Assembly (NCBI GenBank): GCA_013335115.1
Contig: JAAXWQ010000002.1
Span: 124,001-188,000, forward strand
Source: Chlorobiaceae bacterium
Lineage (GTDB): Bacteria > Bacteroidota > Chlorobiia > Chlorobiales > Chlorobiaceae
DNA: 64,000 nucleotides
Reading direction: 5' to 3'
The translations under genes were made by a program, and so were the position numbers. Below are positions 29,047 through 34,500 of this stretch, one piece after another. Below the pieces are notes generated by a model. The model saw nothing but the letters and a program-made list of their open reading frames with translations, did no database searches and was not told the origin of the DNA. Numbering within the stretch: the first letter of the stretch is position 1; every line of letters starts with the position of its first letter.

Positions 29047-29916
29047 ATGCAGCTGACGCACATCAGAAGGATTTCGTTCGCAGGGCTCGGGCTCATCGGC
29101 ACCTCGATCATGCAGGCGCTCCGGAAGGCGGCGGCGGAATCCGGCAAAGCCATCGAGCTGGTCGGTTGGGACCCATGTTTCGACGAAGGGGACATCGCCC
29201 TCATCACCGGGCAGCTCGGCCTCGACCGATTCGAGCCCGAGCCGGCCAAACTCTACGATGCCGACGTCATCGTGCTTTGTGCCCCGGTGAAGGCGAACAT
29301 TGCCATGCTTGAAACAGTCCGTCTCCACGCCCCCGCAGGTACGCTCGTCACCGACGTGTCGAGCACCAAGCAGCTGATTGCCGAGAGGGCCGCAGAGCTG
29401 GGCCTCGACTTCATCGGGATGCACCCCATCGCCGGGCGTGAGCAGCAGGGCTATCTCGCAGCCTCTCCGGAGCTGCTCGCCGGACGGCTCCTGATCGTCT
29501 GCTCGGGGGACAGCCTGCCTGAAACCGGCCACGCAGCGGAGTTCATCGGCCTGCTCAATGCCGCAGGCTGCATCCCGGCAGCCATGAGGCCCGACAAGCA
29601 CGACCGGGCCTACGCCAACATCAGCCACCTGCCGCAACTTATCTCGACCCTCCTCACGACCCACTGCCGCGAGAACATCTCCCGCTCAGGACCGGGGTTC
29701 TCATCGGTTTCCCGGCTGGCCGGTAGCGCCTGGCCAATCTGGCGCGACATCATCGAAACCAATGCCGCCAACATCGCCGACGAGCTCGACGCATTCTCGG
29801 CGATCCTCGCCCGTGCAGCGGCCGACGTGCGGGAACTGCAGCTCGACGCGATCGCCGGAAGCTTCGGCGAAGCGAACCGCATCTACCAATCCCTGCAGCA
29901 AGGAGGCCGGCCATGA
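29047..29916 (+). CDS. tyrA: Prephenate (or arogenate) dehydrogenase
   Basis: A 289-residue enzyme for tyrosine synthesis. The Rossmann motif '[20 protein letters not shown]' binds NAD(P). '[13 protein letters not shown]', '[12 protein letters not shown]', '[15 protein letters not shown]' and '[18 protein letters not shown]' are TyrA signatures, including the catalytic histidine. No chorismate mutase or ACT domain is fused, so it is monofunctional. It overlaps nadK in an ATGA (29913-29916), an unusual pairing of tyrosine and NADP synthesis. Prephenate versus arogenate preference cannot be told. Confidence 0.92.
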
Positions 29917-30770
29917 AATTCGCCATCATCGTCAACATCACCCGCGACAAGGCGCTCAGGCTGGCACGCGAGCTGGCCGCATGGCTTGAGGCCCGGGGGC
30001 TCGACTACATCTACGACACCGAATCGGCCAGGGCGCTCGGCAGCCCGAAATCGGCCGGGGTCGAATCGCTCACCCGCCTCTGCGACCTCTTCATTTCGCT
30101 CGGCGGGGACGGTACGCTGCTCTACACCTCGCACTATTCCGTAGCCAAGCCGGTACTCGGCATCAACGTCGGCAACCTGGGGTTCCTGACCGAGTTCAAT
30201 CCGGCGGACATGTTTGCGGCCATGGAGCACGTGCTGAACGGCAACTACTCGATCCATACCCGTTCGCAGCTCGAGGCCACCGTCGGCGGCGACGGCGGGA
30301 TAAGCCGGATGACCGCCCTGAACGACGTGGTCATCGAAAAGGGGACCTATTCCCGCATTCCGACCTTCATCATCCGCCTCGACGACGAAGTCCTCGGATC
30401 CTACCGTGCCGACGGCATCATCATTGCCACATCGACGGGATCGACCGCATACTCCCTGTCGGCGGGGGGCCCGATCATCGCCCCGAAATCGAACGTCTTC
30501 GTCATCACCCCCATCTGCCCGCACATGCTGACGGTAAGGCCGATCGTCATCAGCGACGACAAGCTGATCAGTGTATCGGTCGAGGCTACAGGCGGAGAGT
30601 TCCCGCTGAACCTCGACGGCCAGCTCCGCAAGATGCTGGAGCCCGGCGAGATCGTCGCGGTCAGGAAATCCCCGCAGGCCGTCAACCTGGTGGCCAACGA
30701 AAACCGGAACTACTGCGAAATCCTCAGGACCAAACTCCTCTGGGGCCACGAACACCCCGCCGGCCAGTAA
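29913..30770 (+). CDS. nadK: NAD kinase
   Basis: A 285-residue NAD kinase that makes NADP. '[17 protein letters not shown]' is the conserved GGDGT motif. '[14 protein letters not shown]', '[13 protein letters not shown]' and '[20 protein letters not shown]' bind substrate, and 'ISPQA'-like C-terminal elements are replaced by a short basic tail. The length is typical. It is coupled by overlap to tyrA and is the last gene before the repeat island. Confidence 0.96.
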
Positions 30771-30785
30771 CCAAAGCTATTCTTA

Positions 30786-30803
30786 ACCCTTTCGTCCCTG
30801 CTG
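30786..30803. repeat. Left 18-bp direct repeat flanking the island
   Basis: ACCCTTTCGTCCCTGCTG; the right copy at 31580-31597 differs at one base. The pair could mark an insertion into a GTCC-rich intergenic element, or both could be fragments of that element. Confidence 0.55.
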
Positions 30804-30818
30804 AATTCTGCCACGGCA

Positions 30819-30877
30819 TTCCCGGGGTTCGCTTCGCATCACCCCGCGCTACCCACATATCGCCCCTAACGGGGCTT
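30819..30877. repeat. Left inverted repeat of the island
   Basis: This arm is the imperfect reverse complement of 31415-31463. Shared blocks are TTCCCGGGGTT, GCTACCCACATATCGCCCCT and GGGGCTT. The outer part carries about 10 extra bases on the left. Confidence 0.75.
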
Positions 30878-30900
30878 GGCCCAAGCCCGCAATGCAGATA

Positions 30901-31437
30901 TATCGGTAGCTCGGATGTTAAGCCCCGGAGGGGCGTGATATCGGTAGCTCGGATGTTAAGCCCCGAAGGGGCGTGATATCGGTAGCTCGGATGTTAAGCC
31001 CCGGAGGGGCGTGATCTCGGCAAGCACGGATGTTAAGCCCCGGAGGGGCGTGATATTGGTAGCTCGGGTGTTAAGCCCCGAAGGGGCGTGATATCGGTAG
31101 CTCGGATGTTAAGCCCCGGAGGGGCGTGATATCGGTAGCTCGGATGTTAAGCCCCGGAGGGGCGTGATATTGGTAGCTCGGGTGTTAAGCCCCGAAGGGG
31201 CGTGATATCGGTAGCTCGGGTGTTAAGCCCCGGAGGGGCGTGATATCGGCAGCTCGGATGTTAAGCCCCGAAGGGGCGTGATATCGGTAGCTCGGGTGTT
31301 AAGCCCCGGAGGGGCGTGATATTGGTAGCTCGGGTGTTAAGCCCCGGAGGGGCGTGATATCGGTAGCTCGGATGTTAAGCCCCGGAGGGGCGTGATATTG
31401 GTAGCTCGGGTGTTAAGCCCCAGAGGGGCGATATGTG
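30901..31437. repeat. 38-bp tandem repeat, 14 copies
   Basis: Units begin (at GGTAGC or a variant) at 30905, 30943, 30981, 31019, 31058, 31096, 31134, 31172, 31210, 31248, 31286, 31324, 31362 and 31400. The period is 38 bp except one 39-bp unit at 31019. Each unit has a small hairpin GCCCC-GRA-GGGGC; the last copy reads CAGA. Units vary only at a few fixed positions and there are no unique spacers, so this is not a CRISPR array. A 38-bp period is not a multiple of three. Confidence 0.92.
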
Positions 31438-31463
31438 GGTAGCCCGGGGCGTAACCCCGGGAA
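31415..31463. repeat. Right inverted repeat of the island
   Basis: Reverse-complement partner of 30819-30877. It begins with the last GCCCC hairpin unit and runs into a second small palindrome, CCCGGGGCGTAACCCCGGG. Confidence 0.75.
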
Positions 31464-31522
31464 ATCGGGCTTCTATAAATATTTTCAGCCCCGTTAGGGG
31501 CGTCCTGTGGGTTCTTGGGCAA

Positions 31523-31559
31523 TCCGGTGCATATCCGCCCCCACTCCACATGCACCGGA
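31523..31559. repeat. 10-bp perfect hairpin right of the island
   Basis: TCCGGTGCAT (31523-31532) pairs with ATGCACCGGA (31550-31559) over a 17-nt C-rich loop. There is no U-run next to it. Confidence 0.5.
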
Positions 31560-31579
31560 AAAGGATGGGTTCACAAAAC

Positions 31580-31622
31580 ACCCTTTCGTCCCCGCTGTCC
31601 CTATGGTCCCTTTAGTCCTTTT
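31580..31622. repeat. GTCC-rich interspersed repeat, copy A (includes the right direct repeat)
   Basis: Read on the minus strand this is AAGGACTAAAGGGACC followed by GGGACAGCGGGGAC. It shares the core GGGACAGC-GGGGAC with the elements near 34490-34640, 44269-44402 and 46114-46200. It lies immediately downstream of the KdsC-like stop (31630) on the minus strand. Confidence 0.6.
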
Positions 31623-31629
31623 CTTACAC

Positions 31630-32193
31630 TCACTCCTTGTCGCCGTAGGGCCAACGACCCTGGTGCTCCAGGATCATCTCGACAATCTCCCTGATGCACC
31701 CCCTCCCGCCTTCGTAGACCGAGATGTAGGCTACCCGGTTCCTCAGGTACTCGACCCCGTTGATGGTCGTTACCGGCAGACCGACCTTCCTGAGGATGTC
31801 CAGATCCTCGATATCGTCGGCGATGCAGGCGCACTCCTCATCCTTGAGGTCGTAGCGCTGCTTGAACGATTCGTAGGCATCGAGCAGGTCCCCACCCTCC
31901 AGGTAGAGGTCCATGGCTCCCGCAGCCTCGAGCAACGGCTGGTAAACGCTGGCGTTGCGTCCCGAAATGACGGCGATGCGCAGGCCGCTTCGCAGCGCCT
32001 CCCTGATGGCCACGCCGTCACGGGCATACAGGCGCGCGAGCTCCCGGCCTTCGCTGTCAAGGGTGATGGCCCCATCGGTAAGCACGCCGTCAATAGGGAA
32101 AATCACGGCTTTGATGGCGTCCAGGGCGGTTCCGACCTGGGATGAGGGATCAGCCTCGAAAGGCTGCATGCCGAAAAACTGAAAAGAGCTCAC
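31630..32193 (-). CDS. KdsC-like HAD protein lacking the nucleophile
   Basis: 187 residues, related to KdsC (Kdo-8-phosphate phosphatase). 'GVLTDGAITLDSEGRELARL', 'RIAVISGRNASV' and 'CACIADDIEDLDIL' are HAD motifs I (rear part), II and IV. However, motif I reads F-P-I-D-G at 32-36 where KdsC has D-V-D-G: Asp33, the nucleophile, is replaced by proline (codon CCT). The protein may be inactive as a phosphatase or have a structural role. The start is uncertain: GTG 32193 or ATG 32169. It directly follows kdsA (15-nt gap), which supports the pathway link. Confidence 0.8.
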   Translation of the reverse strand: MSSFQFFGMQPFEADPSSQVGTALDAIKAVIFPIDGVLTDGAITLDSEGRELARLYARDGVAIREALRSGLRIAVISGRNASVYQPLLEAAGAMDLYLEGGDLLDAYESFKQRYDLKDEECACIADDIEDLDILRKVGLPVTTINGVEYLRNRVAYISVYEGGRGCIREIVEMILEHQGRWPYGDKE

Positions 32194-33039: not shown

Positions 33040-33162
33040 GCGTTTTCCCGTTAATCAAATCAGCCGGCGCATAAAACGGCCGGTAGCTTCGAGTTGCTTT
33101 TCAAGCCCCTAATTTACACATTAATTTATCTTTTCACGGTTCGACAACAACCTTCAAGCACC

Positions 33163-34500
33163 ATGAATACCGCAGATACCAGGCAGCGGCTACAGGAGAT
33201 CGAAAAGCAGCTTGCCAGCCTCCGCGAGGAGCAGGCGACGGTCAAGGCGCAATGGGACTCCGAAAAGGAGCTGATCCAAACTTCACGGCGGCTGAAGTCG
33301 GAGATCGAGGAGCTTCGGGTTCAGGCCGAGAGCTACGAACGCACAGGGGATTACGGAAAGGTCGCCGAGATCCGCTACGGCAGGATCGCCCAGCTGGAAC
33401 GAGACCTTGGGGAGAATGCGCGGAAGGTCGACGCCAAGCAGGCTTCGGGCGACCTGATCATGAAGGAGGAGATCGACGCCGGCGACATCGCCGACATCGT
33501 CTCCCGCTGGACGGGCATCCCTGTCAGCAAGATGCTGCAGTCCGAGCGGCAGAAGCTGCTCGGCATCGAGGGGGAGCTGCATCGCAGGGTCATCGGGCAG
33601 GAGGAGGCCGTCAGGGCGGTCAGCGATGCCGTGAAGCGCTCCCGCGCCGGCATGGGCGACGAGAAGCGCCCGATCGGATCGTTCATCTTCCTCGGCCCGA
33701 CCGGGGTCGGCAAGACCGAACTGGCCCGCACCCTCGCCGAATACCTCTTCGACGACGAGGAGTCGATGATCCGCATCGACATGAGCGAATACATGGAGTC
33801 GCACACCGTGAGCCGACTGGTGGGCGCGCCCCCCGGCTACATCGGCTACGAGGAGGGCGGGCAGCTCACCGAGGCCGTGCGGAGGAAGCCGTTCTCCGTG
33901 GTGCTGCTCGACGAGATCGAGAAGGCGCACCCGGATGTATTCAACATCCTCCTGCAGATCCTCGACGACGGGCGCCTGACCGACAGCAAGGGCCACACGG
34001 TGAACTTCAAGAACACCATCATCATCATGACCTCGAACATCGGGGCCCAGCTGATCCAGGCCGAGATGGAGAAGGTTGACGGCACCCCGTCCGAAGCGGT
34101 GCTCGGCGGCCTGCAGGAGAAGCTGTTCCAACTGCTCAAGCAGCAGGTGCGCCCGGAGTTCCTGAACCGGATCGACGAGGTCATCCTCTTCACGCCGCTC
34201 TCCCGCGACGACCTGAAGGAGATCGTCACCATCCAGTTCGACCGCATCAAGGCGCTGGCCATGCGCCAGCGGATTTCGCTCACGATCAGCGAAGATGCCG
34301 TCATGTGGCTGGCCCGGACCGGCTTCGACCCCGCCTTTGGGGCACGTCCGTTGAAGCGCGTCATGCAACGCCAGGTCACCAACCGGATCTCGGAGATGAT
34401 CCTTGCCGGGCAGGTCGACGAAGGCGACACCGTGGAGGTGGCGGTGGAGGGGGAGGGGATCGTACTGAGTAAGAAGGCTGAAGAAGAAGAAAAGGACTGA
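33163..34500 (+). CDS. clpB: ClpB C-terminal half (middle domain + AAA-2), split chaperone
   Basis: 445 residues. Residues 1 to about 90 are the coiled-coil middle domain ('[20 protein letters not shown]', '[19 protein letters not shown]'). AAA-2 has Walker A 'GPTGVGKT' at 178-185, pore loop 'GYIGYE' at 225-230, Walker B 'VVLLDE' at 246-251 and sensor 'TSNIGA'. A C-terminal D2 small domain ('[13 protein letters not shown]') follows. It resumes almost exactly where the protein encoded at 8948-10264 stops, with little or no missing sequence. ATG 33163 is the natural start; an upstream in-frame ATG at 33094 would add a hydrophobic extension. The acidic tail overlaps a repeat element. Confidence 0.95.

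Follow-up and report, generated by a model that had tools for sequence, protein, structure and literature searches.

A tandem-repeat island between nadK and kdsC in a Chlorobiaceae genome is probably an orphaned REP-like cluster related to subclass 1.2 Y1 transposases

What kind of element is a tandem array of 38-bp hairpin units, set within inverted repeats that lie in turn within short direct repeats, and how did it come to occupy the gap between two genes of a Chlorobiaceae bacterium? The island lies in a 64,000-nt stretch of one contig, which we call the window, from a draft genome of 2.1 Mb (99.6% complete, 29 contigs), and fills the convergent gap between nadK (+) and kdsC (-). An earlier note had read it as a non-autonomous, possibly REP-like element that inserted and then expanded internally, with the inverted repeats as its ends and the direct repeats as its insertion footprint; a structured RNA was another suggestion.

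The array itself is much as that note described. TRF finds the 38-bp unit in 13.9 copies at 30900-31430 (93% matches, score 920), and there are indeed fourteen hairpins of the form AGCCCC-NNN-GGGGC, all in direct orientation, the first starting at 30921 and 30959 and the last at 31416. Spacing from hairpin to hairpin is 38 bp in twelve cases and 39 bp in one, so the array consists of 13 direct 38/39-bp units and a terminal copy, which is itself part of the right inverted element; the number of units is less certain in a draft assembly. Each unit can be written as AGCCCC-GGA-GGGGC-GTGATATCG-GTAG-CTCGGATGTTA. Variants recur at fixed positions, as claimed: they are confined to four columns and form a mosaic. 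We detected no significant higher-order period in the array (permutation p = 0.10 at the best lag and 0.50 over all lags), and a lag-3 similarity between units was rejected as higher-order structure because it was not significant. A CRISPR array was also rejected, because the whole 38-bp period is repeated and there are no unique spacers.

The inverted repeats that bound the array are real (longest ungapped stretch 26 nt, 30842-30867 / 31424-31449, 96% complementary), but they are not the two ends of a single transposon. They are two full copies, in opposite orientation, of a single two-hairpin repeat, of which the 38-bp unit is a shortened version. In the full element, hairpin 1 (GCCCC-loop-GGGGC) is followed by a 9-nt spacer (consensus ATRTNG), the tag GTAG and then a second palindrome. 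Both hairpins are present in the DNA fold of the full elements, in each of which GTAG stands directly 5' of the palindrome (CGCGGGG...CCCCGGG at 30821-30876); the left copy is 56 nt long and the right 46 nt, a difference due to a loop insertion of about 10 nt. The array unit shares hairpin, spacer length and tag with the full element, whereas its palindrome 2 is degenerate, being truncated at the start of the next hairpin, so that its 3' arm coincides with hairpin 1 of the following unit. In the decayed third copy the tag is eroded to GTTC and the second palindrome is missing. All coordinates are collected in Table 1.

Table 1. Features of the island and its neighbours, in window coordinates unless stated otherwise
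Feature	Position	Strand	Description
nadK (NAD kinase)	29913..30770	+	Left neighbour, points at island; Pfam PF01513/PF20143
18-bp direct repeat, left copy	30786..30803	+	15 bp past nadK stop; simple GTCCC-type sequence
Left full element	30821..30876	-	Hairpin 1 GCCCC-GTTA-GGGGC, spacer GATATGTGG, GTAG, palindrome 2 CGCGGGG...ACCCCGGG, long AAGCG-type loop
Left full element, contig coordinates	C1:154821-154877		R1 model 69.9 bits in genome search
First, partial array unit	30894..30920	+	Without hairpin 1 (ATATCGGTAGCTCGGATGTTA)
Tandem array	30921..31415	+	13 units of 38 bp (39 bp at 30997); hairpin 1 + GTGATATYG + GTAG + CTCGGRTGTTA; TRF, R1
Right full element	31416..31461	+	AGCCCC-AGA-GGGGC, spacer GATATGTGG, GTAG, palindrome 2 CCCGGGGcgtaaCCCCGGG, short loop; R1 55.9 bits
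Decayed third copy	31487..31514	+	AGCCCC-GTTA-GGGGC then GTCCTGTGGGTTC; inverted-repeat pair
18-bp direct repeat, right copy	31580..31597	+	Begins GTCCC-rich degenerate tract (31587-31618)
kdsC-like HAD phosphatase	31630..32193	-	Right neighbour, points at island; Pfam PF00702

A search of the genome, which the earlier note had proposed, confirmed that the inverted repeats recur elsewhere; all copy counts given here derive from such searches. Chance is not the explanation, as the core pattern is matched 25 times in the 2.1 Mb and a reversed control pattern not once. R1, a covariance model built from five copies with a 3-nt loop, has 28 hits, of which 13 are array units and two the window ends; the remaining 13 are spread over about eight places outside the island. 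For a REP family, this is a small number of copies. Some of the other places are organized in a similar way, with a clean inverted pair of elements at C23:3939-4079 and, at C6:72304-72660, four tandem minus-strand copies in steps of about 79 bp together with one plus-strand copy. Because these two places repeat the same logic, the window exemplifies a general layout. Six of the seven places checked are free of overlap with long ORFs; the copy on C25 overlaps a mechanical ORF. Within the genus, the R1 family occurs in 4 of 21 genomes, mainly this one and its closest relative, G032, which has 21 copies. At the end of a short contig of G032 (C33:7200-8188, locus L191), more than ten window-family elements follow one another, alternating in orientation; the assembly probably broke here within a larger cluster.

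To which enzyme, if any, do these repeats belong? For Y1 enzymes, a scan bears out the statement that no transposase is nearby: there is no Y1 gene in the window and the nearest lies about 135 kb off on the same contig. Evidence for a partner comes from relatives. In G032, positions 77492-77947 of contig C35 (G032:C35:77492-77947) encode a 152-aa Y1 (HUH) transposase with the motifs DHVH, WQ and YIRNQKEHH, which are the signature of subclass 1.2 (PMC6006769). Four or more elements lie immediately around this gene, several AGCCCCGTAGGGGCGGCATATGGGTAGC upstream and one directly downstream. A family-wide search yielded five further genes related to the G032 transposase (37-59% identity). R1 elements were present in the 1.5-kb flanks of all six subclass-1.2 genes, which belong to G032 and five other genomes of the family, vs none of the 11 other Y1 genes of the genus (Fisher p = 8e-5). 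At one of these loci, L267, a textbook copy, AGCCCCGTAGGGGCGGCATATTGGTAGCGCGGGGTGAAACCCCGGG, sits about 100 bp upstream of the transposase gene. The G032-type protein scores 71.6 bits against NCBIfam NF033573 (cut-off 55) and matches ISDra2 TnpA (2xm3) with E = 5e-9; its score against NF047646, the REP-associated transposase family, is 33 bits, under the cut-off of 80. The earlier reading was correct in that the likely enzyme is a Y1 protein of the IS200/REP type with no gene near the island; the linked gene has YIRNQKEHH rather than the class 2 RAYT signature.

Subclass 1.2 is described as being generally without typical IS200 terminal structures and as not sharing IS properties (PMC6006769). 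Our literature search found no description of subclass-1.2 repeats, which does not prove that none exists. The genus also has a second Y1 branch (L010-L012 and L014), with proteins of about 155-210 aa and YIxxQIEHH in those read; the palindrome near its genes, GTAGTCCCCGGCTTGAAAGCCGGGG, represents a separate REPtron type. L010-L014 and the other Y1 genes of the genus were considered as partners and rejected, because their flanks have this different palindrome and no R1. Another member of the genus, G012, gives 29 matches to Y1_Tnp, most of them fragments at the ends of contigs, a pattern to be expected of a high-copy IS200 element that breaks the assembly.

Our preferred reading, to which we assign a probability of about 0.8, is that the island is an orphaned, non-autonomous, tandemly amplified cluster of REP-like cis-repeats of a subclass 1.2 Y1 transposase. 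We call the repeats orphans because a search of this draft genome at E <= 0.01 detected no subclass-1.2 gene; the negative search and the draft state of the assembly also mean that mobilisation cannot be shown in this genome. An alternative is that the array is a plain minisatellite (VNTR), generated by slippage from a hairpin and unconnected with any transposase. Its units are highly identical, with their four variable columns in a mosaic, and hairpins promote slippage. This account is nevertheless partial, because slippage may well explain how the array grew but leaves the origin of its unit unexplained, and as a full account it is refuted by the dispersed copies: the unit belongs, with the flanking copies, to a family spread over the genome, whose members bracket a specific transposase gene in relatives. 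We therefore regard a minisatellite of this kind as very unlikely.

The orphaned cluster is best compared with two known systems. Like GTAG REP/BIME sequences and their REPtrons (TnpA-REP, RAYT), the elements are short, multicopy, intergenic palindromes with a GTAG foot, here that of palindrome 2, and they occur as inverted pairs, as tandem clusters and as repeats bracketing a Y1 gene (PMC3733652, PMC2817692, PMC8266576). Unlike REPtrons, the linked transposase is of class 1 (subclass 1.2, Y---Q--HH), whereas TnpA-REP is of class 2 (Y---NP). The anatomy also differs from the canonical REP, whose GTAG precedes the palindrome on its 5' side: hairpin 1, the conserved core, carries the tag 9-10 nt away on the 3' side, palindrome 2 alone is canonical, and in the array units even palindrome 2 is degenerate. 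GTAG repeats have been listed in Proteobacteria, Cyanobacteria, Chloroflexi and PVC but not in the phylum of this genome (PMC3733652). The likeness to IS200/IS605 insertion sequences and their non-autonomous derivatives lies in the linked transposase, which is of the same family (NF033573, and the ISDra2 TnpA fold as judged by sequence). Unlike those elements, which have one hairpin per end of a mobile unit, many repeats here surround one low-copy gene. A hairpin followed, about 10 nt beyond it on the 3' side, by a conserved tetranucleotide also resembles an IS608-type right end.

Similar motifs accompany such genes beyond the family. Our sample was the best 80 loci for a subclass-1.2 protein of the same order (L009), mostly from Bacteroidota, with a few from Anaerolineales and others. 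Motifs consisting of a hairpin, 6-10 nt and [A/G]TAG were found within 600 bp of the gene at 61 of the 80 loci, with a density of 2.03 per kb (<=600 bp) vs 0.16 per kb beyond 1.5 kb, a 12-fold enrichment. Because this first search demanded a hairpin, it was repeated with sequence only, as a non-circular check. The 80 loci contain 266 ATRTTTATAG sites, of which 223 have a 6-3-6 hairpin on the 5' side in a fixed register with at least 5/6 pairs; perfect 6-3-6 hairpins number 169 of 266, vs 17 expected when the arms are dealt anew. Among 54 distinct elements (window-family copies included), all six stem pairs show two-sided changes, and the covariation score is 0.631, vs 0.211 when shuffled and <=0.16 when slid; scores of this kind are inflated by relatedness among the sequences, but the slid registers still lie far below. 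Elements of the window family align without gaps and in the same register to those of the Bacteroidota-type loci. The window model gives weak scores on Bacteroidota subclass-1.2 loci (best 21 bits); it is therefore anatomy and register, and not sequence scores, that provide the link to them.

A different connection was provided by Rfam. No family matches the window at gathering level; the sole one near threshold is Acido-Lenti-1 (RF01687), described as a candidate sRNA (PMC2864571), which over its full length aligns with the minus strand of 31416-31461 (25.9 bits, E 0.001, cut-off 37). In a search of 395 genomes of the phylum, RF01687 had no match in this genome and was found in at least 63, often in many copies arranged as inverted pairs or tandem steps; copy counts are lower bounds, as 15 candidates were scored per genome. 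Examples are an inverted pair at G352:C52:5842-/6002+ and a tandem run in G080:C30 at 66-bp steps. RF01687 resembles the window element read on the opposite strand, with a palindrome, CTA(C) (CUA in the consensus), a spacer and a second hairpin, and reciprocal model matches coincide; indeed, R1 matches many RF01687 places on the opposite strand with up to 59 bits. Many RF01687 copies carry TATATCAGC where the window has ATATNGGTAGC, and the window copy stays under the Rfam cut-off. When 30 RF01687 loci (L236-L265) were inspected, six had a gene 35-38% identical to the G032 transposase within 1.5 kb, with the Y---Q--HH signature where complete. From a few such genes per 4-Mb genome, we estimate that chance would account for well below one case among 30 loci of 3 kb. 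At three loci (L242, L252 and L255), RF01687 copies lie on both sides of the gene in opposite orientation. In Bacteroidota, RF01687 behaves as a dispersed DNA repeat that flanks subclass-1.2 Y1 genes, and looks like an element of the same kind as those in the window rather than an sRNA. If so, annotations would need to be corrected in many genomes.

These data bear on the suggestion that the island is a tandemly duplicated structured non-coding RNA, Acido-Lenti-1 or a relative. The full-length alignment and the two stable hairpins speak for it, and to that extent the idea of a structured RNA found a match, if a weak one. The score is, however, under the curated cut-off; RF01687 is itself multicopy, with inverted pairs and tandem runs, and has subclass-1.2 genes close to some of its loci; and both orientations occur, so that no strand is favoured. 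We consider it highly improbable that an RNA accounts for the island.

Taken with the REP-like cluster proposed for the window, the wider survey suggests a broader interpretation, which we think likely: that subclass 1.2 Y1 transposases and hairpin-spacer-[A/G]TAG repeats form a third kind of REPtron, in Bacteroidota and some Chloroflexota, with RF01687 as one of its repeat families and the window as an orphan outpost in which a shortened element was amplified 14-fold. This would supply DNA partners for an HUH transposase branch to which the main survey assigned none (PMC6006769).

How might such a cluster arise? Enzymes of the TnpA family, such as those of IS608 and ISDra2, bind a hairpin on single-stranded DNA and cut beside a short, guide-matched site (PMC8266576). 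By analogy with these and with TnpA-REP, the transposase, when present, would bind hairpin 1 on single-stranded DNA and cut near the [A/G]TAG that lies 9-10 nt beyond it, allowing the elements to disperse. Movement of the elements by the transposase is inferred in this way, and the leading candidate for a cut site is the [A/G]TAG, with its fixed distance of 9-10 nt on the 3' side of hairpin 1. This tag doubles, in the window family, as the GTAG foot of palindrome 2, in the canonical REP position. With the enzyme lost, or never resident, the repeats would have become fixed here. The 38-bp array could have originated by recombination or slippage between two similar arms, the 3' one of palindrome 2 (TAACCCCGGG) and the 5' one of the hairpin 1 that follows (TTAAGCCCCGGAGGGGC); if TAACCCCGG from palindrome 2 is joined to TTAAGCCCCGG from that hairpin 1, the full element yields the unit. 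Slippage or unequal crossing-over may then have enlarged the array and produced the mosaic, and the lag analysis favours no particular higher-order step in that growth.

The surroundings of the island show what it replaced. In all 11 genus relatives whose kdsC locus was read (L066-L076), a gene of about 470 aa, here called X, precedes kdsC, and in 10 of the 11 the same contig also carries nadK, beyond X. A search of this genome for X gave no match, although the same query does match in relatives; the protein is without a Pfam or NCBIfam match, and a search for its remnants in the island gave only a weak tblastn match (E 0.17). Because X is unmatched here and lies between nadK and kdsC in relatives, the island occupies the place of a lost gene; both neighbours are as expected, which makes a chimeric assembly unlikely. 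The arrival or rearrangement of the cluster accompanied the loss of X in this lineage. Locally, then, a REP-like cluster could outlast its enzyme, expand in tandem and replace a conserved gene. In two of the relatives (L074 in G016 and L075 in G011), the gap between X and kdsC contains other GTAG-type inverted palindromes, GTAGGGGCAACCC...GGTTGCCC. With other repeats in the orthologous gap, this convergent gap seems to take in different repeat families repeatedly.

The 18-bp direct repeats are present with the single mismatch noted before (17/18 identical). If the island were a classical MITE or DNA transposon, with terminal inverted repeats, an 18-bp target duplication and an amplified interior, the inverted repeats should lie inside the direct repeats, as they do. 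Its arms are, however, complete family members that elsewhere are single or otherwise arranged, and the copies on C23 and C26, read by eye, are without flanking direct repeats. The empty site with a single 18-bp repeat that the earlier note had proposed to look for in relatives was not found: a whole gene is there instead, and we found no insertion with a clean empty site. The 18-mer itself is part of a recurring type of GTCCC tract: its right copy leads into such a degenerate, GTCCC-rich stretch, close counterparts of which are found in the window at 34489(-) and 44361 and in G032 next to kdsC. Exact CCCTTTCGTCCC sites number four in the genome, two of them away from the island. We accordingly rejected the 18-bp repeats as a target-site duplication. 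IS200/IS605-type enzymes are not known to generate such duplications. A classical transposon thus appears extremely unlikely, and of the earlier description the REP-like, non-autonomous, internally expanded element stands, without the 18-bp repeats as its footprint. Degenerate GTCCC(T)nnnn tracts of about 36 bp recur at gene ends in the window (31588-31623, 34489(-) and 44361).

Finally, that the repeats belong to the resident long Y1 genes (about 330 aa, NHAH...YIHLNP, subclass 2.1-like) is hardly credible: the genome does have five Y1_Tnp genes, the four with readable motifs being of this long type (NH[AV]H, YIHLNP), but GTAG palindromes lie beside none of the five, no REP-like sequences are reported near subclass 2.1 genes (PMC6006769), and in the family the elements flank subclass-1.2 genes only. 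Beyond kdsC, the window also contains a ClpB-like ORF (33094-34500, +) of 468 aa, limited to the middle and C-terminal half, with one AAA_2 domain and D2-small; the N-terminal half is missing there.
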